A DNA stretch of 52,466 bases from Lentisphaerota bacterium (GTDB taxonomy: Bacteria; Verrucomicrobiota; Kiritimatiellia; PWTM01). The position numbers and the translations under genes are program-made. Positions 109 through 50,646 of the stretch are shown here, piece by piece. The notes beneath the pieces were generated by a model. The model was not told the origin of the DNA. It ran no database searches and saw only the letters and a list, made by a program, of their open reading frames with translations. Position 1 is the stretch's first letter; each line of letters starts with the position of its first letter. The stretch spans positions 1 to 52,466 of the forward strand of contig VGWF01000012.1 of assembly GCA_016873715.1 (NCBI GenBank), in the 5' to 3' direction.

Positions 109-202
109 GGAGGTGGCTGGGGCCCGGTGGCCCTTGCGGTCTTCAAAACCGTTGTGCCGTCGCAAGGCGGCGGGTAGGTTCGACTCCTATCCACCTCCGC
201 CA
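109..202 (+). tRNA. selC: tRNA-Sec (anticodon UCA)
   Basis: The gene can be folded by hand into a selenocysteine tRNA. An 8-bp acceptor stem (109-116 with 191-198) is followed by G and an encoded CCA end (199-202). A 5-bp T stem closes a TTCGACT loop, which gives the 8+5 architecture of bacterial tRNA-Sec. The anticodon loop CTTCAAA (141-147) has anticodon TCA at 143-145, and there is a long variable arm. The total is 94 nt, close to the E. coli length. It lies only 15 nt before selA, so tRNA and mRNA may share a transcript that needs processing. It would read the in-frame UGA codons of the three candidate selenoproteins downstream. Confidence 0.96.
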
Positions 203-217
203 CTCTGTTTCCGGGAG

Positions 218-1663
218 ATGCATCACGTGCAGAAGCGAGCGCCAGTAGCGAAGCGCGCGGCCACCGGGAGGTCGGCCAAACCCGTCGCGCGCCTGCCGGG
301 CGTGGATGAGGTCCTCCGGTCGGAGGCGGCTCGCCCGCTTCTGGAGTCCCACCCCCACCCCCGCGCGGTCGAGGGGGTCCGGGCGGCGATCGACGAACTC
401 CGGCGGGCCCCGGCCCGCGGCCCGGCGACGGCCGCATCGATCGCCGCACGCGCCGCGGCATGGCTTGCGGAGGACGTGTTCCAGCGCCTGCGCCCGGTCG
501 TGAACGCGACGGGCGTCATCCTGCATACCAACCTGGGACGCGCCGTCCTTCCGCCCTCCGCCGTTGTCGCGCTCGCGGCGATGGACCGCTGCTGCAGTCT
601 CCAGATCGACCTCGACACCGGTGCCCGCGGCAAGCGGCACGCGATGAGCGAACGGCTGCTGTGCCGCCTGACCGGGGCCGAGGCGGCGCTGGTCGTCAAC
701 AACAACGCCGCGGCGACCCTGCTCGCCCTCGCCGCCCTCTGCGCGGGACGCGAGGTCGTCGTCTCGCGCGGACAACTCATCGAGATCGGCGGCTCGTACC
801 GCCTCCCCGACTGCGTCCACCAGTCGGGCGCGACGCTCGTCGAGGTCGGCACGACCAACAAGACGCACCTGCGCGACTACGAGGCCGCGCTGACCGACCG
901 CACCGCCGCCGTGATGCGCGTCAACCCGAGCAACTACCGGATCATCGGCTTCTCGAAAGAGGTTCCGGTGTCGGACCTCGTCACGCTCAGGAAGGGCCGG
1001 CCGGACCTGCTGGTCCTCGACGACCTCGGCTGCGGCGCGCTGGTCGACCTCACCCGCTTCGGCCTGCCGCACGAGCCGACCGTCCCGGAGAGCGTCCGCG
1101 CCGGCGCCGACCTCTCGTTCTTCAGCGGCGACAAGCTGATCGGCGGTCCGCAGGCGGGGATCCTCGTCGGCCGCGCCGCCCTGATCGCGAAGATCAAGAA
1201 GCATCCGCTCACCCGCATGCTGCGGGTCGGCAAGATGACGGACCTCGTCCTGGAGCGCACGCTGCGGCTCTTCCTCGAGCCGGAGCGGCTGCCGGAGACG
1301 AACCCGACGTGGCGCATGCTGACGCTCCCTGCGGCCGCCCTCCGCGTACAGGCGGAGGCGCTCCTGGCCGCGGCCGTCGCTGCGGGCGCGCCGGCGGCGT
1401 GCCTGCGCGTCGTCCCGTGCGACAGCACGACCGGCGGCGGCTCGCTGCCGGGGCATCCGATCCCGTCCTTTGCCGTCGCCGCCCGTCGCGACGGGCTCCC
1501 CGCCGCGACGCTCCTGCGCCGGCTGCGCCGGCACGATCCGCCGGTGATCGGCCGGATCGAGGACGACGGCGTGATCCTCGATGTCCGGACGCTCCTGGAC
1601 GGCGAGGATGCGATCGTGGCGCGCGCCGTCGGCGCGGCGCTGGGGGCCGGAGGTCCTGCGTGA
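218..1663 (+). CDS. selA: L-seryl-tRNA(Sec) selenium transferase
   Basis: This is the PLP enzyme that converts Ser-tRNA(Sec) to Sec-tRNA(Sec) using selenophosphate. The product is about 481 aa, against 463 in E. coli. The N-terminal helix region (LPGVDEVL) matches the family, and the PLP-binding lysine sits in SGDKLIGGPQ (Lys306 from this start). An upstream in-frame start at 65 would run through tRNA-Sec and is unlikely. The GGGAG at 213-217 touches the ATG at 218 and is spaced better for the GTG at 227, so the true product may be three residues shorter. The stop overlaps the selD start (GTGA). Confidence 0.95.
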   Translation: MHHVQKRAPVAKRAATGRSAKPVARLPGVDEVLRSEAARPLLESHPHPRAVEGVRAAIDELRRAPARGPATAASIAARAAAWLAEDVFQRLRPVVNATGVILHTNLGRAVLPPSAVVALAAMDRCCSLQIDLDTGARGKRHAMSERLLCRLTGAEAALVVNNNAAATLLALAALCAGREVVVSRGQLIEIGGSYRLPDCVHQSGATLVEVGTTNKTHLRDYEAALTDRTAAVMRVNPSNYRIIGFSKEVPVSDLVTLRKGRPDLLVLDDLGCGALVDLTRFGLPHEPTVPESVRAGADLSFFSGDKLIGGPQAGILVGRAALIAKIKKHPLTRMLRVGKMTDLVLERTLRLFLEPERLPETNPTWRMLTLPAAALRVQAEALLAAAVAAGAPAACLRVVPCDSTTGGGSLPGHPIPSFAVAARRDGLPAATLLRRLRRHDPPVIGRIEDDGVILDVRTLLDGEDAIVARAVGAALGAGGPA

Positions 1664-2931
1664 GCGGCGTGGATGTACGCCGGCGCAAGGCGGTGATGTC
1701 GCGGTCGGTCCGGCTGGGCCACTGCGTCTGCAATACGCGGCAGGCCTGCCCGTGCGAGACCTTCCGCCTGCACAACGTGTGTCCCTGCGCCGGCGAGAAG
1801 ATGCCGGTCGCCTCCGGTCCGGTCGCGCTGACGCGGCATGTCCGAAAGGCCGGCTGCGCGTCGAAAATCGGCCAGGCGGACCTGTTGCGCCTCCTCGGGC
1901 AGCTCCCGCCCCTGACGGATCCCAACGTGCTGGTCGGCGCCTCCGCGGGCGACGATGCGGGCGTCTACCGCATCTCCGACGACCTCGCGCTGGTGCAGAC
2001 GGTGGACGTCTTCACGCCCTGCGTCGACGATCCGCGCCTTTTCGGCCGGATCGCGGCGGCGAACTCGGTCAGCGACGTCTACGCGATGGGCGGCCGGCCC
2101 GTGACGGCGCTCTCGGTCGTAGGCTTCCCGATCGACGATCTCGACGGGGCCGTTCTGGCCGAACTGATCCTCGGCGGACGCGAGAAGCTCGACGAGGCCG
2201 GCTGCGCGCTGGTCGGCGGCCACAGCTGGCAGGACGAGGAGATCAAGCTGGGCTTTGCCGTCACGGGGCTGATCCACCCGACGCGCGCGGTCCTGCGCGG
2301 CGCGGCGCGGCCGGGCGACGTGCTCGTCCTGACGAAGCCCCTCGGAACCGGGATGATCGCCTTCGCGGCGCAGCTCGGCCGCGCGTCGGCCGAGGCGCTG
2401 GCGGACGCGGGCGACGTGATGTCCACCCTCAACCGCGACGCGGCGGAGGCGATGGTCAGGCACGGCGCGCACGCGGCGACCGACGTCACGGGCTTCGGGC
2501 TCGGCGGCCACCTGGTCGAGATGATGCGCGGCAGCGGCTGCGCCTGCACGATCGACCTCCCCTCCCTGCCCGTCTTCCGCGCCGTACCGGAATGCCTCGC
2601 GCAGGGCATCCTCTCCGGCGCCGACGAGCGCAACGAGGCCTACGCCATGGGCTGGATCCGCGCGGAGGATCCCGCGGGCGAGTCGCTGCTGCCGGTCTTC
2701 TACGATCCGCAGACCTCCGGCGGCCTGCTGGTCAGCCTGCCGCCGGAGCGGGCGGCGGCGCTGTGCGACGATCTGCGCGGGCGCGGCCACGACGCGGTGC
2801 GGATCATCGGCCGGGTCGCCGGCCTGGAGCCGGGCGCGGAGAGCCGGATCGTCGCGACCGGCACATCGCTCGAAGCGTGCCGCGGGCCGGCCGGCGCGAT
2901 CCGACCCCCGCCCCCGGGAGCCGCGCCGTGA
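1660..2931 (+). CDS. selD: Selenide, water dikinase (selenophosphate synthase)
   Basis: The enzyme makes selenophosphate from selenide and ATP for SelA. The start is the GTG at 1660, which overlaps the selA stop and has GGAGG at 1649-1653 six bases upstream. The product is 423 aa, longer than the usual 345-350. The catalytic pair is Cys66 and Lys69 in AGCASKIG, so this is a Cys-type SelD with no Sec of its own. Family motifs such as GDDAGVY, SDVYAMGG, GFGLGGHL and DPQTSGG are present. The extra length is an N-terminal segment with three CxC pairs (Cys22/24, 30/32, 41/43) ahead of the catalytic Cys, which could bind metal or act in redox. The stop overlaps the selB start. Confidence 0.95.
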   Translation: MSGVDVRRRKAVMSRSVRLGHCVCNTRQACPCETFRLHNVCPCAGEKMPVASGPVALTRHVRKAGCASKIGQADLLRLLGQLPPLTDPNVLVGASAGDDAGVYRISDDLALVQTVDVFTPCVDDPRLFGRIAAANSVSDVYAMGGRPVTALSVVGFPIDDLDGAVLAELILGGREKLDEAGCALVGGHSWQDEEIKLGFAVTGLIHPTRAVLRGAARPGDVLVLTKPLGTGMIAFAAQLGRASAEALADAGDVMSTLNRDAAEAMVRHGAHAATDVTGFGLGGHLVEMMRGSGCACTIDLPSLPVFRAVPECLAQGILSGADERNEAYAMGWIRAEDPAGESLLPVFYDPQTSGGLLVSLPPERAAALCDDLRGRGHDAVRIIGRVAGLEPGAESRIVATGTSLEACRGPAGAIRPPPPGAAP

Positions 2932-4919
2932 CCAGCCGCCGCCCGCCCGGCCTCCTGCGCGCCGAGGTCCAGCCGGACGTCGTCGCGATGCTCTGCACAG
3001 CGGGCCATGTCGACCACGGCAAGACCAGCCTCGTCAAGACGCTGACCGGCTGCGCCACCGACCGGCTCAAGGAGGAGATCGAGCGGGGGCTGACGATCGA
3101 ACTCGGCTTCGCCCCCTGCTGGATCGGCGGCGAACTGTGCGCGGGCATCGTCGACGTACCCGGCCACGAGCGGTTCGTCCGCACCATGGTCGCCGGCGTC
3201 TCGGGCATCGACTTCTGCATCCTCGTGATCGCGGCGGACGACGGCGTCATGCCGCAGACGCGCGAGCACGTCGAGATCATGCAGCTCATGGGTATGACGC
3301 AGGGCATGGTCGCGCTGACCAAGATCGACCTCGTCACGCCCGAGGACGTCGCGGCGCGCACGGAGGAGATCCGCGCATTCCTGGAGCCGACGTTCCTGCG
3401 CGGCGCGCCGGTGTGCCCGGTCTCGACGATCACCGCGGACGGGTTCGAGGGCTTCTACGACACGCTGGTTGCCGGGCTGAAGGCGGGGCTGCGCGACCGG
3501 CGGACGGGCGTCTTCCGCATGCCGGTTGAGCGCGCCTTCTCGCGTCCCGGGTTCGGCTCCGTCGCGACGGGCATCCCCGTCGCCGGTACGATCCGCCTCG
3601 GCGCGGAGGTGGAATGCGTTCCGGGCGGCCTTCGCGGGCATCTGCGCGGCCTGCAGCGGTTCGGGCGCACGGCGGAGGATGGCGGCGCCGGGCAGTGCCT
3701 GGCGTTGAACATCCCGGAGTTCGGCAAGACCCCGCCCGCGCGCGGGCAGGTGCTGTGTCCGCCGGGACACCTGCAGGCGGCGCTGCAATTCCACGCGCGC
3801 CTGCATGCGGTTCCTCGGCTCGATCCGCCGCTGGCCAACGCGGAGGACGTCACGTTCCACACCGGCACGGCCGAGCAGCACGGCCGTGTGTTCCTGCTCG
3901 AGTCGAAGAAGCTGGGCGCGGGCGAGTCGCAGCTGGCGACGGTGGTCGTCGACGAGCCCGTCGCCGCGGCGGCGGGCGACCGGTTCATCGTGCGGCGCGT
4001 CTCGCCGCCGATGACCGTCGGCGGCGGACGGCTGTTGCGGGTCGATACCGCGGCCCGCCGTCCGCGGCGCAAGCTGCTGCTCGACGAACTCCAGCGCCAC
4101 GAGGCGTTCCTGGCCGGGGTCGAGTGGGATTCCGACGAGGGCCGGCGCCGCCGGGTCGAGCACCTGCTGGAGCACGGCGAGACCGCCGCGCTGTCCGCCG
4201 ACGACCTCGGCCGCCGCCTGCTGCTGACCGGCGACGCCGTGAAGACCGCGATCGGGACGCTGGCCTCCGCGGGGACGGCGATCGACCTCGGCGGCGGGAC
4301 CTGGGCCCACGCGGCGCGCGCGACGGCCCTGCGCGGGCGGATGGAGAAGCGGCTGGCCGAACTGGCGGCGGCCTCGGACCGGCTTCGTGTGCCCCTCGCC
4401 GAATGGCGCCGCGGCTTCGACGTTCCCGACGCGCTCTGGACCCACGGCTGCCGCGAGATCGAACGCGCCGGCGGCGTGCGCATCGCGGGCGGCTTCGCGA
4501 TGCCGGCGGCCGGATTCGAGACGCTGCCGGCCCCCGACCGCGCGCTGGCGGAGCGGATGCTCGCCCTCTACGAGCGCGAGGCGTTCGAGACCACGCACCC
4601 GGACGAGGTGCACGCGAAGCTCGGCGCCCCGCCGGACCGCACCGCGCGCATGCTGGAGTGGCTGACGGCGCGGGGCGACCTCGTGCGCGTGGCCCCGAAC
4701 GTCGTGCTGACCGCGGCCCGGCTTCGTGCGGCGCAGGACCACGTCGTGAAGACCATCCAGGCGTCGGGCAGCCTCGACTCGCAGGCCTTCCGCGCGCACT
4801 TGGGCGTCTCGCGCAAGTACGCGATGTCGATCCTCGATTTTCTTGATTTGCGCAAGGTGACCCTCCGGGTCCAGAATGCGCGGCGGCTTCTCCCGGGGTG
4901 GGAGCAGCGGCTGGTGTGA
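2928..4919 (+). CDS. selB: Selenocysteine-specific elongation factor SelB
   Basis: SelB is a translation GTPase that carries Sec-tRNA(Sec) to UGA codons marked by a SECIS hairpin. The product is 663 aa. The G1 motif GHVDHGKT lies at residues 26-33, DVPGHERF is the G3 motif, and TKID is G4. EF-Tu-like beta-barrel domains follow, then a C-terminal winged-helix region (about residues 400-663) that in SelB binds the SECIS RNA. The start is the GTG at 2928, overlapping the selD stop, with GGGAG at 2916-2920 seven bases upstream. The ATG at 2988 is a less likely alternative. selA, selD and selB overlap by four bases each, so they should be translationally coupled. Confidence 0.95.
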   Translation: MTSRRPPGLLRAEVQPDVVAMLCTAGHVDHGKTSLVKTLTGCATDRLKEEIERGLTIELGFAPCWIGGELCAGIVDVPGHERFVRTMVAGVSGIDFCILVIAADDGVMPQTREHVEIMQLMGMTQGMVALTKIDLVTPEDVAARTEEIRAFLEPTFLRGAPVCPVSTITADGFEGFYDTLVAGLKAGLRDRRTGVFRMPVERAFSRPGFGSVATGIPVAGTIRLGAEVECVPGGLRGHLRGLQRFGRTAEDGGAGQCLALNIPEFGKTPPARGQVLCPPGHLQAALQFHARLHAVPRLDPPLANAEDVTFHTGTAEQHGRVFLLESKKLGAGESQLATVVVDEPVAAAAGDRFIVRRVSPPMTVGGGRLLRVDTAARRPRRKLLLDELQRHEAFLAGVEWDSDEGRRRRVEHLLEHGETAALSADDLGRRLLLTGDAVKTAIGTLASAGTAIDLGGGTWAHAARATALRGRMEKRLAELAAASDRLRVPLAEWRRGFDVPDALWTHGCREIERAGGVRIAGGFAMPAAGFETLPAPDRALAERMLALYEREAFETTHPDEVHAKLGAPPDRTARMLEWLTARGDLVRVAPNVVLTAARLRAAQDHVVKTIQASGSLDSQAFRAHLGVSRKYAMSILDFLDLRKVTLRVQNARRLLPGWEQRLV

Positions 4920-4938
4920 GACGAAAGGCAAGCGCGGC

Positions 4939-5217
4939 ATGACTCCGAAGGGCGAGCGGTGGGTACGGCTGGTGGGCGGCATCGCCGCCGCGCTGGCCTT
5001 CGCGGCGATCGCGCGCGGGCTGAGCCGCTCCCACACGGTCTACGACAAGGGCGCGGCCGAGTTCGGCCTCGACGATCCCATCCGGATCACCGAGAAGCAA
5101 CTCAACGCCGACGCGACCTTCTCCGGCGTCGAATCCAGCCGCAAGACCGGCAAGATGCTCTCGACCTACGACCGCAGCCAGCCCCCGGGCAAGCGCGCGT
5201 GCCCCACCTGACTGTGA
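4939..5217 (+). CDS. Candidate small membrane-anchored selenoprotein ending CPT-Sec-Leu
   Basis: I do not recognise the family. The reading frame starts at ATG 4939, 19 bases after selB. It encodes about 90 aa with one N-terminal hydrophobic segment (residues 9-26) and a short polar domain ending ACPT. It then meets UGA (5209-5211), CUG and a second UGA (5215-5217). If the first UGA is read as Sec, the protein ends Cys88-Pro-Thr-Sec91-Leu92, a C-terminal CxxU redox motif. Support comes from a perfect 10-bp hairpin with a GGU loop placed like a SECIS, the position directly behind selADB, and the same CPT-UGA in a second gene at 7229. If UGA is a normal stop, the product ends at 5211 as a 90-aa protein. 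The existence of the gene is fairly sure, the Sec reading less so. Confidence 0.6.
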
Positions 5218-5223
5218 TCCCTG

Positions 5224-5246
5224 CGGTCCGCCCGGTGGGCGGACCG
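5224..5246 (+). promoter_or_regulatory. Putative bacterial SECIS hairpin (3' UTR of the small CPTU protein)
   Basis: A perfect 10-bp stem (5224-5233 with 5237-5246) encloses the loop GGT. The stem starts 13 nt and the loop 23 nt after the UGA at 5209-5211, matching the geometry of bacterial SECIS elements, which carry a G (often GU) in the apical loop. It lies beyond the second UGA, so it is not coding. No T-run follows (the next bases are AAAAG), which argues against a simple intrinsic terminator, though a terminator role cannot be excluded. Confidence 0.55.
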
Positions 5247-5251
5247 AAAAG

Positions 5252-5459
5252 CACCACGGATCTCGCGGATGGCGCGGATTTGCGACGGAACATGCCCCCA
5301 ATTGCTGGATATCGAATGCCGGCCAGGATGACAGGATCTGCCGAGGGTCGGGCCGATAGGCTGCCCGTCCGCCTGACGGCTTTCATCGGGTGCATGCGGG
5401 GCCGTTCTCAGGTCTGTCCCTGCCCGTCTTCATCCGTGCCGTCCGTGCAATCCGTGGTG
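5252..5459. repeat. Inverted pair of CACGGAT-type short repeats
   Basis: 5252-5280 contains ACGGAT, GCGGAT, GCGGATT in roughly 9-10 nt phase. 5431-5459 contains the complementary series ATCCGTG, GTCCGTG, AATCCGTGG. The two arms are imperfect inverted copies about 150 nt apart. The rest of 5218-5491 shows no gene. The same CACGGAT core recurs at 50628 and 52257, so it looks like a dispersed intergenic family. Confidence 0.6.
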
Positions 5460-5491
5460 TCCCCTCCCCCCGCCGCCTGTGGAGAGACCTG

Positions 5492-6379
5492 GTGAATGCG
5501 GCGGGCAGCAGGTCGAAGCGTCCCCGGAACCGGTGGCGGCCGTGGGTGCAGGCGGTGTCGCTCGTCGGCCTCAACCTCTCCGCGGGATCGCTCGCCCACT
5601 GGCAGGCGAAGTGGATGTGCCTGCCGGTGATGAACTGCCACTCGTGCACGCTGGCGATCTTCGGCTGTCCGATCGGGATGATCTCGCACTATGCCGGCTA
5701 CCGCGTGTTCCCGCTGCTGCTGGCGGGCATGCTCTTGCTGGCCGGGGCGCTCGTCGGCCGGATGTTCTGCGGGTGGGTCTGCCCGTTCGGCACGCTCCAG
5801 GACTGGCTCCACAGGATCCCGTCGCGCAAGTTCGGCCTGCCGCGATGGGCGGGCTGGATCAAGTACGCGGTGCTGGTCCTGATGGTCTTCGTCTTCCCGT
5901 TCCTCTGGGGCGAACTCACGCAGGCCTCGTTCTGCCGCTGGTGCCCTCCGACCACGATCCAGGTGACGATCCCGAACCTGCTGACCGGGGTGACGAAGGC
6001 GGTCACGTCCGCGATGGCGATCAAGATCGCGATCGCGCTGGCGGTCTTCATCGCCTGCATCTGGGTTTCGCGGCTCTTCTGCCGGGTCTTCTGCCCCATC
6101 GGCGCGCTGATGGCCGTCTTCAACCACATCTCGCTCTGGCGGGTCGGCCCGCTGAAGACCCGGTGCACCGGCTGCGAGCTGTGCCGCGACAAGTGCCCGA
6201 CCGCGGTCGCGCCGTTCGACCGGCTCGCCGCGGGCGTCCCGGCGAACCGTCACGCGGACTGCGTCGTTTGCCACGACTGCACGCTAGGCTGCTCCCGCGA
6301 GCAGAAGCGCGCGCGGACGGTCCGGACGGAAGACCAACACGAAGGCGCAGAGGCCGCAACGAGGACGATGGCGCAATAG
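5492..6379 (+). CDS. Membrane [4Fe-4S] protein, NapH/NosR-like
   Basis: A 295-aa integral membrane electron-transfer protein. Hydrophobic segments alternate with the paired motifs FCGWVCPFG (Cys93, Cys97) and FCRVFCPIG (Cys197, Cys201) typical of the NapH/NosR/YccM type. Extra cysteines occur at NCHSC (49, 52) and FCRWC (148, 151). The C-terminal domain has two ferredoxin-like clusters, CTGCELCRDKC (225-235) and CVVCHDCTLGC (257-267). The GTG at 5492 is chosen because GGAGAG (5481-5486) precedes it; an upstream frame opening at 5390 runs through the repeat. In related systems such proteins pass quinol electrons to periplasmic enzymes. Its place between two predicted selenoproteins suggests it may reduce them, which is inference. 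Confidence 0.85.
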   Translation: MNAAGSRSKRPRNRWRPWVQAVSLVGLNLSAGSLAHWQAKWMCLPVMNCHSCTLAIFGCPIGMISHYAGYRVFPLLLAGMLLLAGALVGRMFCGWVCPFGTLQDWLHRIPSRKFGLPRWAGWIKYAVLVLMVFVFPFLWGELTQASFCRWCPPTTIQVTIPNLLTGVTKAVTSAMAIKIAIALAVFIACIWVSRLFCRVFCPIGALMAVFNHISLWRVGPLKTRCTGCELCRDKCPTAVAPFDRLAAGVPANRHADCVVCHDCTLGCSREQKRARTVRTEDQHEGAEAATRTMAQ

Positions 6380-6405
6380 GACGGCGCGACCGGCGTTATA
6401 CGACT

Positions 6406-7068
6406 ATGAACACTCTCCACCGTGTCCGGATCCTCGCCGGCTTGGCGACCGCACTGGCCACGATCGCGGGCGCACAGGGGCCGGGCGGGCGCCCGGTCCA
6501 GCGGGGGCGCCCGGAGGCATCCGGAGGTCCGGCGGTGGGCGATCCGGTGCCGGCGATCGAACTGCAGCGACTGGAAGCGGCCGACGGCGCCGCGAAGCCC
6601 GGCGCGAAGGAACCGCTGGTCGATCACGCGAAGAAACGGCCCGTCGTGCTGATCTTCTCGAGCTTCACGTGACCCCCGTTCCGCGCGGCGGCCCCGGCCG
6701 TCGAGCGCTTGTACCGGCGGTACAAGGACCAGGCGGACTTCAAGATGATCTACGTGCGCGAAGCTCACCCGGACGACGGGTGGCAAACCGAGTCCAACCG
6801 GCGCGCCGGCATTGTCTACAAGACCCCGACCAACGATCTGGCGCGGGCCGCGATCGCCGCGGACTGCGTGCGGGCGCTCGGCATCACGTTCCCCTGCCTG
6901 GTCGACGACATGCAGGACAGCGTGCAGAAACTGCTCCGCGCGTGGCCGGCGCGGGCGGGAATCGTCGGGGCCGACGGACGGATCGCCTACCTCAGCGCGC
7001 CCGGGCCGCGCGGCGTCGATCCCGATGCGATCGAGGCCGCGCTCAAGAGGACGCTGGCCGGCCCGTGA
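6406..7068 (+). CDS. Secreted iodothyronine-deiodinase-like selenoprotein (in-frame UGA)
   Basis: An ATG at 6406 begins a 220-residue thioredoxin-fold protein if the UGA at 6670-6672 is read as Sec89. A signal peptide is visible (residues 1-23, ending TIAGA). The active-site stretch FSSFT-Sec-PPF and the later EAHPDDGW (119-126), then VDDMQ and a GRI-Y-GP region, follow the order seen in iodothyronine deiodinases. Animal deiodinases have SCT-Sec-P; here the Cys two before Sec is Phe. The frame stays open and family-like on both sides of UGA, and the downstream half has no good start of its own, only a TTG inside the family core. A SECIS-like hairpin sits at 6683-6708. The bacterial substrate is unknown; it could be a peroxide, a thiol or a halogenated compound. 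TGA at 7066-7068 is the real stop. Confidence 0.88.
6683..6708 (+). promoter_or_regulatory. Putative bacterial SECIS in the deiodinase-like gene
   Basis: Stem GCGC+GGCGGC (6683-6692) pairs with GCCGTC (6697-6702) and, after a GA bulge, GCGC (6705-6708), with one G-U pair. The apical loop CCCG is 6693-6696. The stem begins 11 nt and the loop 21 nt after UGA 6670-6672, the expected SelB-binding distance. It is inside the coding frame, as in known bacterial selenoprotein genes. Confidence 0.6.
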
Positions 7069-7081
7069 CCGGCCGCCGCGA

Positions 7082-7818
7082 TCAGCGACTGGCCTGCGCC
7101 GTGCCGCCGATGGGCTGAACGTCCACCGGGATCTTGGTGCCGATCGTCTGGCCGCTGACTTCGGTATACGCCACGAGCGTATACTTCCCTGGTTTGGCCA
7201 CCTCACCGAGGTAGCCGCCGCCGCCTCCTCACGTAGGGCACATCGAGTCCAGGGATTTGGACTTGGCCAAGGCCGGCTTGCCCGCCTCGTCCAGAAGGTA
7301 GAAGTGGCAGCTTCCGCTGGTCTCCAGCGTCCTCGCGAACTTGCCGCCCCCCATATCCTTGGCCTTGTAGCACGAGGCCGTGATCTTGACGCCGAGCGGC
7401 TTTCCTTCCTTCCAGTCCCGGTTCTTGGAGGAGGTCTTGTCCAACCCGGCGCTTGCGACGAACTGGTACTTGCTGCCGTGCTTCTCGTCCGTGATCTCGG
7501 ACTTGAGCTCGGCAAGCTTCGCGTCGGGCAGCACGATCGCCGTGTTCAGCGACGGACCGGAGGAGAGGCCCGTGAGCGCGATCGGCTGGCCGCCGGCGCT
7601 CCGGACTGCTCTTGGATGAAGGCCTGGTCCTCGGCACTGAGCAACTGGCGCCGGATGCCGAGGGTCTGGCCATCGGGCTTCTTCAGGGTGACCGTGTCGC
7701 CGGTGATCCGGACGAACTCGGCATCGAGCTTGGTCCCGGAAACGCTCGTCCACTCCCGCGCCGAGGCAACGGAACAACACGCGAGGCCCATCGCGACCCA
7801 TCGCAACCAGGCTTTCAT
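7082..7818 (-). CDS. Secreted SHD1-domain protein with CPT-UGA (candidate selenoprotein), frameshifted
   Basis: ATG at 7818 is preceded by AAGGAAG. A signal peptide (residues 1-20, ending VASA) leads into an SHD1-like domain (about 21-71: REWTSVSGTKLDAEF through LSAEDQAFIQ), a domain frequent in planctomycete and verrucomicrobial secreted proteins. Near 7590-7605 the coding sense moves to another frame, equivalent to one missing base. The new frame runs to Ser-Met-Cys-Pro-Thr, then UGA at 7229-7231. It continues for 48 convincing residues (YLGEVAKPGKYTLVAY, an Ig-like beta pattern) to TGA at 7082-7084. A 9-bp hairpin with a GGU loop follows the UGA. The Sec reading has good support. The frameshift may be an assembly error, a real mutation or two genes. 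It converges with the deiodinase-like gene, 13 bp apart. Confidence 0.7.
7196..7216 (-). promoter_or_regulatory. Putative bacterial SECIS in the SHD1 selenoprotein gene
   Basis: On the minus strand, GGCTACCTC (7216-7208) pairs with GAGGTGGCC (7204-7196) with one G-U pair, enclosing the loop GGT (7207-7205). The stem starts 13 nt and the loop 22 nt after the UGA at 7231-7229. Loop sequence and spacing match the hairpin at 5224-5246. Confidence 0.6.
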
Positions 7819-25903: not shown

Positions 25904-27328
25904 ATGGGTGTGACCGAGAAGCTGAAGCTGCGCGCGGTTCCGGAACTCGGAGCCCGCAGCCTCGCGGCCGTCCACCGACACGGCGACTCGATCGCGTGGA
26001 CCACCCTGCGTGTCCGCAAGGACGCGCGCGATCCCGCGGTGCCCGAGTCCCGCCTGCTGCCGGCGCCCGCGGCGGATGCCGAGGCCGCCCCCGAGGTCGT
26101 CGGCACGGCGCTCCGTCCCCTGCTCGCGGGCGTGCGGGGCGAGGCGACGATGACGCTCCCGGCCGACCAGGCCCTGCTGCGCGTCGTCGAGCTTCCCACC
26201 GGCGATGCGACGGAACTGCCCGGCATGGTCGAACTGCAGATCGACCGGTTCTCCCCCTTCCCCGTCGAGCACCTGGTGGTCGCCTACGAGATCCTCGATT
26301 CCGCGGAGGACCGGACGCGCCTCCTGATCGCCGCGGTGCAGCGCGACCAGGTCGACCGCGAGGCGGCGATCCTGTCGGCGGCCGGCCTGGACGTCCGCCG
26401 CGTCGACCTCGACATCCTGGGGTGGTGGCACCACCTGCGCGCGTCGGACGCCGCGTCGGCCTCCGGCCTGCAGCTTCATCTCAATCTCGCCGCGAACGCC
26501 GTGACGGTGCTCGCGCTGCAGGACGGGCGGCCGGTGCTCGTCCGCGCGCTCGGACGCGGCGTCGGCACCGACACGCCGCAGGAGATCCAGGACGAGATCA
26601 GCCTGACGCTCACCCAGCTGGAGACCGAGTGGGGCCTGGGCGCCGGCGCCTCGATCGTCGCCTGGTTCGACGGCGAGCCCGACGCCGCCTGGGCGCAGGC
26701 CCTGGGCGACGCGTGCGGGCTGCCGGCCCGCGCCGCCGGCCTGGGCGACCTGCCCCCGCTGACGGAGGGGATCGTCCGCCGCGCCCTGGAGGATCCCGAG
26801 CGCACGCTCAACCTGGCCCCGCCGGAATGGGACACCGCCCGCAGGTCGCGGAACGCGTCCCGCCGGATCATCGTCGCCGCGGCCGCCTGCGTCGGAATCT
26901 GGCTCGCCGTGGTCGTCGGTTTCCTCGGGGCCCTGGAACTCCGCCAGGCCTCGCTCAACCGCCTCCGGACGCGGGTCGAGGTGCTCGAGAAGCCCGCGGG
27001 CGAGGTGCGGGTGCTGCAGTCGCGCACCAAGGCGCTCGAGGACTACGGCGACCGCAGCCGCTCCTCCCTCGAGCTTCTCCGCCAGATCAGCGCCGACCTT
27101 CCCGAGGGGCTCACGCTCTCGACGCTGTCCTTCCGCAAGGGCAAGAACCTCAACCTGCGCGGGGAGGCCGACGCGGTGAACGCCGTCTACGACTTCTTCG
27201 CCTCGATGGAGAAATCCGGACTGTACACGACGGTCACGCCGGAGGCGGTGACCCGCAAGTCGGGGGCGCAGGCCCGCGCGGAGTTCCGCTGGTCCGGCGT
27301 GCTCCCGGGCGGAGAGGCGACGCCGTGA
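25904..27328 (+). CDS. gspL: GspL / PilM-PilN-like assembly protein
   Basis: 474 aa from ATG 25904. The N-terminal cytoplasmic part (about 1-300) has the actin-like PilM/GspL fold pattern, for example VVELPTGDATELPGMVELQI and RFSPFPVEHLVVAYE. A single membrane helix lies near residues 325-345 (IIVAAAACVGIWLAVVVGFL). A PilN-like periplasmic domain follows (LRTRVEVLEK coiled region, then LPEGLTLSTLSFRKG). It joins the ATPase GspE to the inner-membrane platform. It ends in a GTGA overlap with the next gene. Confidence 0.85.
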   Translation: MGVTEKLKLRAVPELGARSLAAVHRHGDSIAWTTLRVRKDARDPAVPESRLLPAPAADAEAAPEVVGTALRPLLAGVRGEATMTLPADQALLRVVELPTGDATELPGMVELQIDRFSPFPVEHLVVAYEILDSAEDRTRLLIAAVQRDQVDREAAILSAAGLDVRRVDLDILGWWHHLRASDAASASGLQLHLNLAANAVTVLALQDGRPVLVRALGRGVGTDTPQEIQDEISLTLTQLETEWGLGAGASIVAWFDGEPDAAWAQALGDACGLPARAAGLGDLPPLTEGIVRRALEDPERTLNLAPPEWDTARRSRNASRRIIVAAAACVGIWLAVVVGFLGALELRQASLNRLRTRVEVLEKPAGEVRVLQSRTKALEDYGDRSRSSLELLRQISADLPEGLTLSTLSFRKGKNLNLRGEADAVNAVYDFFASMEKSGLYTTVTPEAVTRKSGAQARAEFRWSGVLPGGEATP

Positions 27329-27924
27329 TCCGGATGTCCACGCGGGAGGCGGTCCTGGCGGTCGCGACGCTGGCGGTCGGCCTGGGGGCCCTGACCTGGT
27401 GGGGCGCGAGTTCCCGCCTGGCGCGATGGACGGAGGTCGGCCGCACGGCCGAGGGCCTGCAGACCCGCCTCCAGATGGCCGAGCGGCTCGTCGGCCGGCG
27501 CGCGGAGATCGAGGGCCGCCTCGACGCCCTGCTCCGGCAGCTCCCGCGTCACGCGCCGGACAAGGACGTCACCGCCGAACTGCTCAAGCTCATCGAGACG
27601 ACCGCCTCGGAACACGGCCTCATGCTGACGCGCCGCGAACCGGAACGGGAGAAGGCGGCCGGCGAGCTCTACGAGGTCGCCATCAACTGCAACTGGGAGG
27701 GCACCCTCGACGCCCTGACCCGGTTCCTTCACGCGATCCAGTCCAAGGGCGCCGTGCTCGACGTGCGCGCCCTGACGATCACCGCCGGACGCTCCGGGTC
27801 CGGCGCCCTGTCGGGGAACTTCTCCGTCGCCTGCGCCTACACGCGCGTCCGCGCGCCGGGCGCATCCACCGCATCCGCTGCATCCCCCGCGGCCGCCGCG
27901 CCGGCCGGAGGCAAACCGAAGTGA
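27325..27924 (+). CDS. gspM: GspM / PilO-like assembly protein
   Basis: 199 aa from the GTG at 27325, overlapping the gspL stop and preceded by GGAGAGG; the ATG at 27334 is an alternative. One N-terminal membrane helix (AVLAVATLAVGLGALTWWG) is followed by a coiled region and a small ferredoxin-like domain (VAINCNWEGTLDALTRFLHAIQ), the PilO/GspM pattern. The C-terminus is Ala/Pro-rich. Position between gspL and gspD supports the assignment. Confidence 0.8.
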   Translation: MIRMSTREAVLAVATLAVGLGALTWWGASSRLARWTEVGRTAEGLQTRLQMAERLVGRRAEIEGRLDALLRQLPRHAPDKDVTAELLKLIETTASEHGLMLTRREPEREKAAGELYEVAINCNWEGTLDALTRFLHAIQSKGAVLDVRALTITAGRSGSGALSGNFSVACAYTRVRAPGASTASAASPAAAAPAGGKPK

Positions 27925-27965
27925 ACCCCGAAACCGGAAACGCCGGCAGGGACCGGAGTCACGTC

Positions 27966-30896
27966 ATGAATGGCATCGCCCATCGTTCGATCGCCGGCAC
28001 CGTGCTGCTCGCGCTGGCCCTCGCCCCGGCGGCGCGGGTCGTCGCGCAGACCGCCGCGCCGGCCCCGTCAGCCGCCGTTCCCGCCCTGGCGACGAACCGG
28101 GTCATCTCCCTCATCGTACCCGCGGCCGCCCCGGGCGCCGCGTCCGTCGCGGGCTCGTCGACGGCGGCGCCTCCGCCGATGATCGCGACCCCGGCGGCGT
28201 CCGGCTCGACCGCCGCGCCGGCGGTGATCGTCACCCCGCCCGCCGCCCTGGCGCCGGCCCCGGCCCTTGCGCCGGCCCCCGCGGCCCCGGCCATCCCCCC
28301 CGCACCGGCCGGCCCCGCCGCCCCGCCCCCCGCGGCCCCGACGATTCCGGCGGCCGTCACCGCGGCCCCGGCGACGGTGGTCGCCGCGCCCGGCCCGGTC
28401 CGGACCCCGGCGCCCCTCTCCGCCCTGCTTGCCCCGCCGCCCGCCGTCATCCCGGCCGGCGCGCCCGCGGCCCCGGGACTGCCGGGCGCCGCCGCCACGG
28501 GCCCGGGCGGACAGAAGCTCATCTCGCTCAGCTTCCAGGACGCGCCGGTGGACCAGGTCCTCGCCTTCTACGCCGAGCTGACCGGCCGGACGATGATCAA
28601 GGCGCAGGGCATCACCGCCGTCATCACGCTGCGCGGACAGACCAAGCTGACGGAGGACGAGGTCAAGCAGGCGATCGAGAGCGTGCTCGCGCTCAACAAC
28701 ATCTCCCTCGTGCCGCTCGACGAGAAGTTCCTGAAGGTGGTCCAGCCCCCGACCGCGCGCCAGGAGGGCCTGCCGATCCGGTTCACGCCGGACGGCAAGC
28801 TTCGGGAAGGCGACGGAATCGTCAGCCAGGTGATCGAGATCCGGCACGTCCTCGTGACGGAGGCGGTGCCCATCCTTCAGCAGATCCTTCACGGGTACGG
28901 CAAGATCCAGCAACTGACGGCCACCGCCATCCTGGTGACCGACACCGAGAGCAACATCCGCCGCCTCCTCGAACTCGTCGAGTACATCGACAAGCCCGCC
29001 GAGACCAAGGTCGACACGCGGATCTACGAGCTTCACGAGTCCATCGCCTACGAGGTCGCCCAGAGGCTCAACGAACTCATCACCGACCCCAACTCCCAGC
29101 AGCGGCGGCCGACCGTCACCATCGTCCAGCCGACCGCCCCCACCCCGCCGGGCGTCGTGCGCGCGCCGACCACGGGCCCCACCGTCCGGACCGACGTCAG
29201 CCTCGCCGACCGCGGCATCATCGTCGGACAGCCGCGCATCGTCGCCGACGACCGGACGAACATCCTGATCATCATCTCGGATCCGGCGAACTTCCCGTTC
29301 TTCGACAACATGATCAAGGTGCTCGACCGCGCCGTCGAACCGGAGACGCTCGTCAAGGTCTACACGCTCGAATACGCCGCGGCGGACGAGGTCGCCGACC
29401 TGCTGTCCTCCCTGATCGGCAGCACGAGCGGCCGGCGTCCGTCGGCCGCGCGCACCGGGACGTCGCAGAACCGCTCCGGCACGACGTCGTCGTCGCGGAC
29501 GACCGGCTCCCGTTCCCTGAGCTCCCGGTCCTCCAACTCCCGCCTGTCCCCCACGGCCAACCGCGGTTCGTCCACCGCCGGCGACAACCGGAGCCAGTCC
29601 ATCCGCGACTACATCGCCAGCCAGACCTCCGGCGGCAACCCGGCGGCGACGGCCGCCGGCGGCGCCGACGGCGAGGGCATCGGGGAGCTGTCCGACGAGA
29701 CCCGCATCCTGCCCGACCTGCGCAGCAACTCGATCCTGCTGATGGGCCGCAAGACGGATCTCAACGTTCTCGAGGAGATCGTCAAGGAACTCGACGTGAT
29801 GCTCGCGCAGGTCGTGATCGAGGCCGTGATCATCGAGGTCTCGCTCAGCGACGAGGTCTCCTACGGCGTCGACTGGCTGCAGCGCTCGATGCAGGCCTAC
29901 ACCGAGACCACGGCCGGCCCCGGCGGCGGCGTCGCCGTCCGCCAGCCCGTGATGTCGTGGGGCGGCGGGTTCCTCAGCAGCGCCGCCTCCGCGTTCCAGA
30001 GCGGCGCCGAGGTCGGCCGCGACGTCGCCCTCTCGTCCGGCGCCATGACCTACTACGCGACGATCGAGAACCTCAACCTCGACGCCGTGATCCGGATGGC
30101 CGCCAAGGACTCCGGCGCGCGCATCCTCTCCACGCCCGTCATCCTCACCACCGACAACACCGAGGCGAAGATCATCGCCGGCGAGGAGCGGCCGATCGTC
30201 ACCGCGACCACCGTCACCACCGGCGGCAACCAGACCTCCGCCTACGAGTACAAGAACATCGGCATCGAGCTGACCGTGAAGCCGCACATCAACCCGCAGC
30301 GGGTCGTCGTGATGGACGTCCTGCAGACCGCGGACAACGTCGGCGACATCGTGACGATCGACGGCAACGACGTGCCCGTCGTCACCAAGCGCGAACTCGA
30401 GGCCAACATCGCCGTCGAGAACCGCTCGACGATCATCCTCGGCGGGCTCGTCAGCAACGCCGACCGCAACAGCCGCTCCAAGGTCCCCTTCCTCGGCGAC
30501 CTCCCGATCCTCGGCCGCCTCTTCCGCTCCGACACCAAGAGCACGCAGCGGACCGAACTGCTCGTGCTGATCACCCCCTACGTCCTGCAGACCCCGCAGG
30601 AGGCGCGCGCCGAGACCCGCCGCATCCACGACTCCACCGACGCCGACAGCAGCCGCTGGTTCGAGAAGGGCTTCACCGACAGCGACCTCGCCCGGCAGAA
30701 GCGCCTCGAGATCCCCCAGGTCCGCAAGGACGCGAAACTGCCGCCGCGGATCGAGGAGTTCCTGCGCGGCGTCGCGACCAACCAGCCCGTCCGGTCCGGC
30801 GCGCGGACGATCGTCGTCCCGCAGACCCAGCAGTCGTCGCGGCCCTCCGCCCCGGCGGCGCTGCCGGTCCCCCCCCCCCCCCCCGCCCCCCGTTGA
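27966..30896 (+). CDS. gspD: Type II secretion outer-membrane secretin GspD
   Basis: 976 aa, much longer than the usual 650-710. A signal peptide ends near VVAQ (residue 28). Residues about 29-180 are a Pro/Ala low-complexity segment. N-domains follow (VDQVLAFYAELTGRTMI, then VIEIRHVLVTEAVPILQQIL), and a Ser/Arg-rich insert sits near residues 490-560. The secretin domain has VVIEAVIIEVSL, ARILSTPVILTTDN, GEERPIVT and VPFLGDLPILGRLF. The C-terminus ends in five prolines coded by a 16-C tract (30869-30884). It forms the outer-membrane channel for folded secreted proteins. It is last in the operon; in many bacteria gspD comes near the front. Confidence 0.95.
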   Translation: MNGIAHRSIAGTVLLALALAPAARVVAQTAAPAPSAAVPALATNRVISLIVPAAAPGAASVAGSSTAAPPPMIATPAASGSTAAPAVIVTPPAALAPAPALAPAPAAPAIPPAPAGPAAPPPAAPTIPAAVTAAPATVVAAPGPVRTPAPLSALLAPPPAVIPAGAPAAPGLPGAAATGPGGQKLISLSFQDAPVDQVLAFYAELTGRTMIKAQGITAVITLRGQTKLTEDEVKQAIESVLALNNISLVPLDEKFLKVVQPPTARQEGLPIRFTPDGKLREGDGIVSQVIEIRHVLVTEAVPILQQILHGYGKIQQLTATAILVTDTESNIRRLLELVEYIDKPAETKVDTRIYELHESIAYEVAQRLNELITDPNSQQRRPTVTIVQPTAPTPPGVVRAPTTGPTVRTDVSLADRGIIVGQPRIVADDRTNILIIISDPANFPFFDNMIKVLDRAVEPETLVKVYTLEYAAADEVADLLSSLIGSTSGRRPSAARTGTSQNRSGTTSSSRTTGSRSLSSRSSNSRLSPTANRGSSTAGDNRSQSIRDYIASQTSGGNPAATAAGGADGEGIGELSDETRILPDLRSNSILLMGRKTDLNVLEEIVKELDVMLAQVVIEAVIIEVSLSDEVSYGVDWLQRSMQAYTETTAGPGGGVAVRQPVMSWGGGFLSSAASAFQSGAEVGRDVALSSGAMTYYATIENLNLDAVIRMAAKDSGARILSTPVILTTDNTEAKIIAGEERPIVTATTVTTGGNQTSAYEYKNIGIELTVKPHINPQRVVVMDVLQTADNVGDIVTIDGNDVPVVTKRELEANIAVENRSTIILGGLVSNADRNSRSKVPFLGDLPILGRLFRSDTKSTQRTELLVLITPYVLQTPQEARAETRRIHDSTDADSSRWFEKGFTDSDLARQKRLEIPQVRKDAKLPPRIEEFLRGVATNQPVRSGARTIVVPQTQQSSRPSAPAALPVPPPPPAPR
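30869..30884 (+). repeat. 16-base poly-C tract at the 3' end of gspD
   Basis: Sixteen consecutive C, coding for the last base of a valine codon and five prolines, twelve bases before the gspD stop. It is the longest single-base run I noticed in the window. Loss of one C removes the gspD stop and joins the frame to galM; gain of one C shifts to a stop at the galM start. Tracts of this length often vary in length and are also prone to sequencing error. Confidence 0.85.
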
Positions 30897-42098: not shown

Positions 42099-45000
42099 AT
42101 GTCACACGAACCTGAAACCGCCGGTCCGGCCCCGTGGCCGGACCTGTACCGCGCCATGCGGATGGCCCGCCGCATCGAGGCCACCGCCACCGACCTCGCG
42201 CGCCGCGGCGACGCCTCGTTCCACCTCGGCGGCGACGGCCACGAGGCCTCCGCCGCCTTCGCCGCGCTCCTCGGCCCGCAGGACTGGCTCCACCCGCACT
42301 ACCGCGATGTCGCCCTCATCCTCGCGCGCGGCCTCCCCCCCTCCGCCTACCTGCACTCGCTGCTCGGCACCGCCTCCGGCCCGACCGCCGGCCGCGAGAT
42401 GCCCCCCTTCCAGTGCGACCCGGCCCTGCACATCCTCAGCATGCCCACCCTCGTCGGCAACAACGCCCTCCAGGCCGCCGGCGTCGCCGCCGCCGTCCGC
42501 GACCGGCCCGGCGCCCCCGTCGTCTACTGCGCCCTCGGCGACGGCGGCTCGCAGGAGGGCGAGGTCCTCGAGGCCGTCGCCGAGTGCGTCCGCGCCCGGC
42601 TCCCCGTCCTCTTCGTCGTCCAGGACAACCGCTTCGCCCTCTCCACCCCGACCGCCGGCCGCACCTTCTACGACCTGCCCGCCGGACCGGCCGGCGCCTT
42701 CCTCGGCGTCCCGATCGTCCACGTCGATGGGCGCGATCCCCTCGCCCTCCACGCCGCCGTCGCGCCGCTCGTCGCCGCCATGCGCTCCGACCGCGCCCCG
42801 CGCATCGTCGTCATGCACTGCGAACGGCTCCTGAGCCACTCGAACTCCGACGACCAGTCCGTCTACCGCAGCGACGCCGAGATCGCCCGCATCCGCGCCG
42901 ACGCCGACCCCGTCGCCACGCTGCGCGCCCGCCTCGCCGCCGGCCCGCTCGGCGCGCGGGGCGTCGACGCCCTCGAGGCCGCCGTCGAGGCCGACCTCGC
43001 CGCCGCCCTAGAGGCCGCCCGCGCCGCCCCCCGTCCCGTCCACGCCCCCGCCCGCCGCCCCCTGCCCGACGGCGCCGACCGCCGCTCGCGCGAGGCCCGC
43101 GGCGCGGACGCCGGCCGCACCCTCTCCATGCTCGAGGCGATGCGCGAAACCCTCCGCTCGCTGCTCGACCGCGATCCGGCCGTCACCCTCTGCGGACAGG
43201 ACATCGCCGACCCCAAGGGCGACGTCTTCGGCGTCACCCGCGGCCTCTCCACCGCCTTCCCCGGCCGCGTCGCGAACGCCCCCCTCACCGAGAGCACGAT
43301 CGTCGGCACCGCCGTCGGCCGCGCCCTCGCCGGCGGACGCCCCGTCGCCTTCCTCCAGTTCGCCGACTTCTTCCCGCTCGCCTACAACCAGCTCGCCGCC
43401 GAACTCGCCGCCATCCACTGGCGCACCAACGGCGCGTACGAAGCGCCCGTCATCGTCATGGCCGTCACCGGCGGCTACCGCCCCGGCCTCGGCCCCTACC
43501 ACGCCCAGAGCCCCGAGGCCGCCATGGCCCTCGCGCCCGGCCTCGACGTCGTCGCCCCCGCCACCGCCGCCGACGCCGCCGGCCTGCTCAACGCCGCCTA
43601 CGAATCCCGTCGCCCGACCGTCTTCCTCTACCCCAAGGCCCTCCTCAACGAGCGCCGCCTCGCCACCTCGCCGGACGTCGCCGCCCAGTTCGTCCCCCTC
43701 GGACGCGCCCGCACCGTCCGCTCCGGCCGCGACCTGACCCTCGTCGGCTGGGCCAACACCGTCGGCCTCTGCGAACGCGCCGCGGACGAACTCGCCCGCG
43801 CCGGCGTCGAGACCGAGGTCATCGACCTGCGCTCGATCTCGCCGTGGGACCGCGACCTCGTCGCCGCCTCCGCCGCCCGCACCGGCCGCCTCATCGTCGT
43901 CCACGAGGCCTCCGCCTTCTGCGGCGTCGGGGCCGAGATCCTCGCCGCCGTCGCCGAGTCGTCCACCGCCCCCGTCGCCCTCGCCCGCGTCACCGGCCCG
44001 GACTCCCTCCTGCCGTTCCATGCCGACCTCCAGCTCGAGGTCCTCCCCTCCGTGCGGCGCATCCTCGAACGCGCCGCCGCCATGCTCGACCTCGACCTCC
44101 GCTGGGAGAAGCCCGCCGACGACGCGCCCGGCACCCGCACCGTCCGCGCCGCCGGGTCGAGCCCGTCGGACGAGAACATCCGCATCGTCCGCCTCCACGC
44201 GAAGCCCGGCGACGCCGTCGCCGCGGGCGCCATCCTCGCCTCCGTCGAGGCCGACAAGGCCCCGCACGAGATCGCCGCGCCCTGCGCCGGCACCGTCGCC
44301 AGCCTCGCCGCCGCCGAGGGCGAGATCCTCAAGGCCGGCGCCCCCCTGCTGCGCCTCGCCGTCGCGGACGATGCCGCCTCCGCCGCCCCCGCCGCCGAAG
44401 TCCCCGTCATCCGGCGCCGCGCCCGCTCCGCCCGCACCGCCCCCGCCCTGCTCCGCCGCGACGAACGTCCCGTCGTCATCTCCGCCATCTGCCACACCAC
44501 CGGCGCGCGCGAGGTCTCGAACGAGGAACTCGTCCGCTCCTACCCGGACTGGAAGCCGGAGGACGTCGTCCAGCGCACCGGCATCGAGCGCCGCTACTGG
44601 ATCGGCCCCGGCGAGAACGCCCTCACCCTCGCCGTCTCCGCCTGCCGGAAACTCCTCGACCGCGAAGGCCTCACGATCGCCGACTTCAACGCCATCATCT
44701 GCAGCACCGGCACGCCGCTCTCGGCCACGCCCTCCCTCGCGTGCCGCATCCTGAAGGAACTCAACGAGCCCGGCGGGGCCGTCCAGATGCAGGCCCACGA
44801 CGTCAACGCCGCCTGCACCGGCTACCTCTACGCCCTCCAGCAGGCCTGCGACATGCTCCAGCACAACCCGGATGCCCGCATCCTCCTGGTCACGTCCGAG
44901 ACCCTCTCGCCCATGCTCGACCACTCCGACCCCGGCACCCTCTTCCTCTTCGGCGACGCCGCCACCGCCTCGCTCATCTCGCGCGAGTCCCGCCCCGGCG

Positions 45001-45431
45001 GCTTCAACCTGCGCGTCAGCCGGCCCGTCCTCTCCGCCCTCGGCGAGGAGGAGAAGGTTCTCTACGTCCCCGCCATCAACACCGGCGCCTACGTCGCGAT
45101 GGACGGCAAGCGCGTCTTCCGCGTCGCCATCCGCAAGATGATCGACATGCTCGAGGGCGCCTGCGGCGCCGACGGGCTCTCGATCAACGACCTCTCCATG
45201 ATCGTCCCCCACCAGGCCAACGAACGCATCATCGAGGCCATCCAGAAGGCGATCAAGTTCCCGACCGAGAAGGTCTTCTATTTCATCCGCGATTACGGCA
45301 ACACCTCGTCGAACACCATCCCCCTCGCCCTCTCCGCCCTCATCCCCGGCCAGCCCGCCGGCTACAAGGTCGGCCTCACCGCCTTCGGCGGCGGCTTCAC
45401 CTTCGGCGCCGCCATCCTCGAAGTGCTCTGA
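42099..45431 (+). CDS. Fusion of 2-oxoacid dehydrogenase E1-alpha, E1-beta, lipoyl-like domain and ketoacyl-ACP synthase III
   Basis: 1110 aa in one open frame with four modules. (1) Residues 20-320 are E1-alpha, with the thiamine diphosphate motif GDGGSQEG (147-154) to QDN177. (2) Residues 341-665 are E1-beta (LTESTIVGTAVG, FADFFPLAYNQL). (3) Residues 692-755 are a biotinyl/lipoyl-type domain with VEADK720A, Lys720 being the expected lipoylation site. (4) Residues 790-1110 are a FabH-like synthase with the triad Cys906 (AACTG), His1038 (VPHQAN) and Asn1068 (YGNTSSN). No E2 acyltransferase or E3 is in the chain. The layout suggests decarboxylation of a 2-oxoacid, transfer of the acyl group to lipoate, and direct use as primer for chain extension; that last step is inference. 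The next gene follows after 12 bp. Confidence 0.92.
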   Translation: MSHEPETAGPAPWPDLYRAMRMARRIEATATDLARRGDASFHLGGDGHEASAAFAALLGPQDWLHPHYRDVALILARGLPPSAYLHSLLGTASGPTAGREMPPFQCDPALHILSMPTLVGNNALQAAGVAAAVRDRPGAPVVYCALGDGGSQEGEVLEAVAECVRARLPVLFVVQDNRFALSTPTAGRTFYDLPAGPAGAFLGVPIVHVDGRDPLALHAAVAPLVAAMRSDRAPRIVVMHCERLLSHSNSDDQSVYRSDAEIARIRADADPVATLRARLAAGPLGARGVDALEAAVEADLAAALEAARAAPRPVHAPARRPLPDGADRRSREARGADAGRTLSMLEAMRETLRSLLDRDPAVTLCGQDIADPKGDVFGVTRGLSTAFPGRVANAPLTESTIVGTAVGRALAGGRPVAFLQFADFFPLAYNQLAAELAAIHWRTNGAYEAPVIVMAVTGGYRPGLGPYHAQSPEAAMALAPGLDVVAPATAADAAGLLNAAYESRRPTVFLYPKALLNERRLATSPDVAAQFVPLGRARTVRSGRDLTLVGWANTVGLCERAADELARAGVETEVIDLRSISPWDRDLVAASAARTGRLIVVHEASAFCGVGAEILAAVAESSTAPVALARVTGPDSLLPFHADLQLEVLPSVRRILERAAAMLDLDLRWEKPADDAPGTRTVRAAGSSPSDENIRIVRLHAKPGDAVAAGAILASVEADKAPHEIAAPCAGTVASLAAAEGEILKAGAPLLRLAVADDAASAAPAAEVPVIRRRARSARTAPALLRRDERPVVISAICHTTGAREVSNEELVRSYPDWKPEDVVQRTGIERRYWIGPGENALTLAVSACRKLLDREGLTIADFNAIICSTGTPLSATPSLACRILKELNEPGGAVQMQAHDVNAACTGYLYALQQACDMLQHNPDARILLVTSETLSPMLDHSDPGTLFLFGDAATASLISRESRPGGFNLRVSRPVLSALGEEEKVLYVPAINTGAYVAMDGKRVFRVAIRKMIDMLEGACGADGLSINDLSMIVPHQANERIIEAIQKAIKFPTEKVFYFIRDYGNTSSNTIPLALSALIPGQPAGYKVGLTAFGGGFTFGAAILEVL

Positions 45432-50118: not shown

Positions 50119-50646
50119 ATGACCATCGACCAAGAGATGAAGACAAGATTCAAGTTCGTTCGTACCCGCAGATACCTGGATGCCGATCTGGAACTGGTGC
50201 TGACGAAGACAACACAGGCGGATCCGGTGAAGAAGCATGTGCCGGGGTACGAGTTTGAGATGCGCCAGGCTGGCAAGACAGCCACGATCGGCAGCATTCG
50301 TTTGAGGATCGGCCGGACACGTCCCCTGGTCGGCTGGTGCGGACATGTGGGATACGGGGTCGACGAGAAGGCGAGAGGCAAACGCTATGCCGCCAGGAGT
50401 TGCAGGCTCATCTTCCCCCTTGCGTCCGCCCACGGACTGCAGACGCTCTGGATCACATGCGACCCGAGGAACATGGCATCACGCCGCACATGCGAAATTG
50501 CCGGGGGGACCTACGTGAACACGGTTCGCGTCCCGAAAGGGACGGAGATGTACGACCAGGGGCGACGATGGGTGAGAAGGTACCGATTCGATTTGAGAAG
50601 ACTTCTGTCGAACGCACCACGGGCCTTCACGGATCGCGGTGGCTAA
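50119..50646 (+). CDS. GNAT family acetyltransferase
   Basis: About 175 aa from ATG 50119; starts at 50026 and 50137 are also in frame and no clear ribosome site decides. The fold follows GNAT: a beta strand with [22 protein letters not shown], then [25 protein letters not shown], which includes the acetyl-CoA-binding R-G-K-x-Y-A pattern in place of the usual RGxGxA, and [20 protein letters not shown], typical of RimJ-type N-acetyltransferases. The end YRFDLRRLL fits the family, but the last 12 or so residues run into the repeat starting at 50628. Confidence 0.8.

Follow-up and report, generated by a model that had tools for sequence, protein, structure and literature searches.

Most searches for selenoproteins depend on homologues that carry cysteine (Cys) in place of selenocysteine (Sec), and the deep-Sep method may, by its own statement, miss families lacking such homologues (PMC12013277). 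Other relevant systems have been described separately. The membrane iron-sulfur proteins NapH/MauN and NosR have CxxxCP motifs, membrane helices and a C-terminal pair of [4Fe-4S] sites. Sec lies near the C-terminus in the short bacterial selenoproteins KCU-star, UXX-star and SaoC and is the second-last residue of mammalian selenoprotein S, a membrane protein (PMC3628699). Bacterial deiodinase-like selenoproteins carry the PF00837 domain, and exported proteins with an SHD1 domain are covered by PF03983.

Here, a locus of a Lentisphaerota bacterium is compared with these systems. The window, i.e. the whole stretch of 52,466 nucleotides that was analysed, is contig 12 of a 289-contig, 5.1-Mb genome; in the named genome collection, its relatives of the same family and class are listed as Kiritimatiellae and Verrucomicrobia. 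The comparison points to a selenium-based electron-transfer device of the cell envelope, unrecognised so far. Sec decoding, UGA conservation, SECIS elements and gene pairing are established by comparative sequence evidence; topology, electron flow, its direction and the substrate are inferred.

Sec decoding genes and a deiodinase-like selenoprotein

The bacterial set for Sec decoding is complete in the window. The tRNA-Sec with a UCA anticodon (109–202; ARAGORN; Rfam RF01852, 79.3 bits, cut-off 47) is followed on the same forward strand by selA (L-seryl-tRNA(Sec) selenium transferase, 230–1663; PF03841, 1e-131; TIGR00474, 517 bits), selD (selenide water dikinase in its Cys form, 1660–2931; TIGR00476, 345 bits from residue 56 onward) and selB (Sec-specific elongation factor, 2928–4919; SelB-wing_3; TIGR00475, 258 bits, just above the cut-off of 242). 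Two junctions overlap, the selA stop with the selD GTG at 1660 and the selD stop with the selB GTG at 2928. A previous sequence-only reading had described these four genes as overlapping or nearly touching, and ARAGORN, Rfam and NCBIfam models have now identified all of them.

The Cys-rich N-terminal extension of SelD (LGHCxC...CPC...CPCAGE; 1660–1860) is conserved in both phyla considered below (loci L007, L011 and L013) and is possibly a metal or selenium site. In islands of Hydrogenedentota, SelD is fused to a carboxymuconolactone decarboxylase (CMD)/AhpD-like domain with a CxxC motif (L011, 1424–3097; L013, 2334–3968); the CMD domain scores 45 bits in the L011 fusion.

In-frame UGA codons occur at 5209 and 6670 on the forward strand and at 7231 on the reverse strand. 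The sequence-only reading had taken the three interrupted frames for selenoproteins, each with a hairpin 3' of its UGA. Both proposals stood: the frames are supported by UGA conservation in relatives, covariation and Sec/Cys homologues, and the loops start approximately 20–22 nt after the UGA. Neither homologues ending at the UGA nor a lack of conservation in the downstream residues and hairpins was found.

The protein encoded at 6406–7068 (forward strand; Sec codon 6670–6672), with a signal peptide and the sequence SFTUPPF, is by homology an already known, deiodinase-like type of selenoprotein (PF00837, 79.5 bits, cut-off 27). Its Sec site (FSSFTU) aligns with that of a Sec relative (FGSYTU, G342) and of a Cys relative (GSYTC, G506). 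It differs from NCBIfam NF038285 in scoring 171 against 250, and "deiodinase-like" denotes the domain rather than a chemistry on iodothyronines. The candidate SECIS hairpin of this gene (6682–6707, forward strand) was identified by folding and, at z = −0.45, is no better than shuffled sequences; the Sec call at 6670 therefore rests on homology.

Two selenoprotein families with a CxxU motif

The first of the remaining frames, family 1, encodes a 92-residue single-pass membrane selenoprotein that ends in CPTUL and a stop (4939–5217, forward strand; Sec codon 5209–5211, true stop 5215–5217). Sequence and profile searches located it in 11 genomes, four of the host class and seven Hydrogenedentota, and inspection of the neighbours of NapH-like genes recovered three more, giving 14 genomes in two phyla. 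All 14 have C-P-T, UGA, a single sense codon and then UGA (9) or UAG (5), whereas by chance a stop two codons past other ORF-ending UGAs occurs in 17 of 627 cases (2.7%) in the same loci. The first UGA is never replaced by UAA or UAG. A second stop at a fixed place would be useless unless ribosomes passed the first UGA. The possibility that the second UGA (5215) also encodes Sec was rejected, since relatives carry TAG there; it is the real stop. A diverged fifteenth protein (G461) ends in CFT-UGA-ACG-AGC-UAA and lies upstream of its own NapH-like gene.

Family 1 is present in seven of the 12 Hydrogenedentota with selB (10 above the cut-off, plus two in which selB was recognised immediately next to family 1) versus none of the remaining 56 of the 68 genomes. 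It has 15 invariant residues, and the CPTU motif is among its conserved parts. One membrane helix lies within the first 30 residues and the N-terminus is positively charged; from the positive-inside charge, the CPTU end is predicted to be outside the membrane (N-in, C-out). The structure prediction has a low pLDDT of 59, and family 1 gave zero matches among Pfam and NCBIfam models, including those of KCU-star, UXX-star and SaoC. It differs from selenoprotein S in its bacterial envelope setting, its CPTU motif and its FeS partner, and no sequence kinship between the two is claimed.

The SECIS hairpin of family 1 (5224–5246, forward strand; 10-bp stem) folds at z = −3.4 and has a counterpart 19–24 nt after the UGA in 15 of 15 relatives. 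Stems of 6 bp or more with GG in the loop at 17–24 nt were present in 13 of 15 versus 66 of 1816 other TGA triplets; the remaining two have a 7-bp stem and a CGUGC loop. In a hand-trimmed stem alignment of 12 sequences every cell pairs and four of the six pairs have changed on both sides, these counts coming from related sequences and not being independent events. As the stem lies past the true stop, coding constraint cannot account for it.

Family 3 is encoded on the reverse strand. Its domain at 7080–7607 (Sec codon 7231–7229) is modelled as an Ig-like beta sandwich with a CPTU-GGGGGYLGEV loop; the model is good (pLDDT 85), and a fold search with it returned only remote Ig-like beta sandwiches, with zero matches at E < 0.001. 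A signal peptide and an SHD1 domain (7590–7818; PF03983, 29.5 bits, cut-off 23.7) precede it in another frame, so that the window copy is doubly broken, by the UGA and by a frameshift which leaves the half from 7818 to about 7590 out of frame. In a same-family genome (G007; L007 from 6698), the orthologue has signal peptide, SHD1 and CPTU domain in one frame, which indicates an indel near 7590–7607 in the window copy, either real or an assembly artefact. The SHD1 match is confined to the N-terminal part, and in the window and G007 the protein begins with SHD1, the feature it shares with SHD1 exported proteins; it differs from these in that several members have no recognisable SHD1 and the CxxU loop is on the separate Ig-like domain. 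No Pfam or NCBIfam model matches the CxxU family itself.

The profile search found the UGA at the identical place in 17 family 3 loci from 15 genomes, mainly of the host class but with G223, G137 and G243 from elsewhere in the phylum; the family was not found by sequence or profile search in the 68 Hydrogenedentota. The motif reads C[P/S/A][T/S/H]U-GGxGG[Y/H][F/L]GEV-xxG-YT, with strong conservation on both sides of the UGA. Six paralogues without the UGA have also lost the motif Cys and hence are not Cys replacements.

The family 3 hairpin (7196–7216, reverse strand; 9 bp), GGCUACUUC-GGU-GAAGUAGCC, has its stem starting 12 nt and its loop 21 nt after the UGA. It is coding sequence and was therefore tested against a synonymous recoding null: 112 of 117 cells pair, compared with 93.2 ± 3.2 (sd) and a maximum of 104 in 2000 recodings. 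Among 16 sequences, 13 cells have changed on both sides, a number reached by none of 500 shuffles. The loop spacing of families 1 and 3, 19–24 nt, is within the bacterial SECIS range of about 16–37 nt after the UGA. As regards the bacterial SECIS rule for G, it is among the first two loop bases in the CGGUG and GGU loops and third in the AUGGC loops.

Each of the three frames closes at its UGA under the standard code, and the codons might accordingly be read as ordinary stops, with the hairpins as chance structures or terminators. This is scarcely credible given the family 1 site, which lacks UAA and UAG in 14 genomes and has a further stop one codon later in all of them, the conserved family 3 residues past the UGA, the covarying hairpins at fixed spacing, the Sec/Cys pair in the deiodinase-like family and the co-occurrence with selB.

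Searches by sequence and profile, covering as many as 388 genomes of the phylum together with 68 Hydrogenedentota, found no Cys form of family 1 or family 3; for family 1, the named genome collection likewise contained none. A weak match at an FtsQ/FtsZ locus (L025) was dismissed as chance. Of the Cys homologues that the sequence-only reading had suggested looking for, the genomes searched thus contained one for the deiodinase-like protein (G506) and none for the other two. A list published in 2026, with 119 families of prokaryotic selenoproteins, contains neither of the two, and its table has no CPTU tail protein (PMC13188914), which fits the limit of deep-Sep on families without Cys homologues. 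Open-access literature on a NapH-selenoprotein link, or on Hydrogenedentota, Kiritimatiellae or SHD1 selenoproteins, yielded nothing relevant. Families 1 and 3 are missing from the databases searched, although an earlier description outside the open-access literature is possible. Fixed beside selB or one FeS membrane protein, they exemplify what Cys-dependent searches miss.

Gene pairing with a NapH-like iron-sulfur protein

The gene at 5492–6379 (forward strand) encodes a membrane [4Fe-4S] protein (Fer4_5, 66 bits) with CxxxCP motifs, membrane helices and a double [4Fe-4S] C-terminus. "NapH-like" denotes resemblance only: it scores 52.2 bits with the NapH/MauN model TIGR02163, below the curated cut-off of 213, and all eight members of the subfamily that were tested match this model weakly. 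It further differs from NapH/MauN in an additional N-terminal motif, C-x5-C-x2-C-x6-CP, with Cys residues invariant across the subfamily alignment, and in having a CxxU selenoprotein rather than NapG/NapC as its gene partner.

In all 14 genomes with family 1, from two phyla, a gene of this subfamily lies directly 3' of it, an adjacency that answers the suggestion, made from the window alone, to look for synteny in relatives. It is also near nine of the 17 family 3 Sec loci (window, G007, G500, G251, G008, G348, G371, G289 and G359) versus none of the six non-Sec paralogues; the other eight Sec loci have none in the flanks fetched, where some contigs end nearby. Conversely, a search of 193 genomes of the host class found the subfamily in 15, and in 14 of these it adjoins a CxxU protein of the family 1 or family 3 type, G492 being the sole exception.

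As selB immediately precedes family 1 in 12 of the 14 genomes, in both phyla, part of the synteny reflects one inherited or transferred island. This explanation does not cover five family 3 pairs (G500, G251, G008:C96, G348 and G289), in whose short flanks there is no sel gene. Two unrelated partner families exchange places beside the NapH-like gene, which is a stronger sign of a working link than the synteny of one operon. Comparative evidence thus strongly supports a functional link between the NapH-like protein and the CxxU selenoproteins; gene neighbourhood indicates such linkage, not electron flow. The sequence-only reading had linked the FeS protein with the Sec-containing proteins, and for families 1 and 3 this gains strong support from the 14/14 pairing and the partner swap. 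Membership of the deiodinase-like protein is less certain: its gene is not adjacent to a NapH-like gene in the relatives examined and may simply share the operon in this genome.

In all 14 genomes family 1 immediately precedes the NapH-like gene, with the SECIS between them, an order that would also suit a selenium-responsive leader, in which UGA read-through makes NapH-like expression depend on the supply of selenium. That this is the main role of family 1 seems very unlikely, as the protein of about 90 residues is itself conserved (15 invariant residues, and the CPTU motif too) and family 3, which lacks that arrangement, has the same NapH-like partner gene.

In L008, L011 and L109, from two phyla, an exported protein of about 390 residues (NRNLDLTDDP) and a membrane protein of about 270 residues are encoded 3' of the NapH-like gene. 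This pair is absent from this place in the window, and both proteins gave zero Pfam matches where scanned.

A proposed route for electrons in the envelope

According to our model, the island would make Sec and spend it on envelope proteins. The unrelated families 1 and 3 would each present a C-x-x-U redox pair at the outer face of the membrane and serve as alternative or joint partners of a single NapH-like protein with several [4Fe-4S] motifs. Taking electrons most likely from quinol or a cytoplasmic ferredoxin, this protein would reduce the selenenyl-sulfide of its CxxU partner, which would then reduce an envelope substrate; in this genome, the acceptor might be the thioredoxin-fold, deiodinase-like Sec protein whose gene comes next in the operon. 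This explanation as a whole is the one we favour, with moderate confidence. The balance also tips, if slightly, towards a hitherto undescribed redox module of the envelope. In it, a dedicated membrane FeS protein would be coupled to one or the other of two unrelated selenoprotein families, of which at least the CPTUx one is Sec-only and has a SECIS stem wholly past the stop.

DsbB and VKOR pass electrons from envelope thiols to quinone. The same partners might work in this sense, from envelope thiols or another reductant via CxxU and the NapH-like protein to quinone, and gene pairing and FeS motifs are equally compatible with both directions. Sec generally favours reductive chemistry, however, and the operon partner is a thioredoxin-fold deiodinase-like protein; on these general grounds, we consider the reverse flow unlikely.

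Alternatively, Sec could bind a cluster or a metal. The CxxU sites would then hold a soft metal or metalloid, e.g. mercury, copper or arsenic, which the NapH-like protein reduces or helps to move. The exposed C-terminal CPTUx tail would suit this role, and Sec in several other families is thought to bind metals (PMC13188914). Against it, the loci read showed no recognisable metal transporter or metal-resistance gene next to family 1, and the conserved genes further downstream gave zero Pfam matches where scanned; we regard metal binding as quite improbable. Reduction of the CxxU partners by the NapH-like protein, our preferred reading, offers a testable candidate route by which electrons could reach selenoproteins beyond the cytoplasmic membrane of Kiritimatiellae and Hydrogenedentota.

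Elsewhere in the window, a PilM/PilN-like fusion followed by a secretin (25904–30896) marks a type IV pilus or type II secretion cluster, and a histone-deacetylase-family protein with a long N-terminal region is encoded at 50639–52249. A single long frame at 42099–45431 joins 2-oxoacid dehydrogenase E1 parts, a lipoyl domain and KAS III in an unusual fusion.
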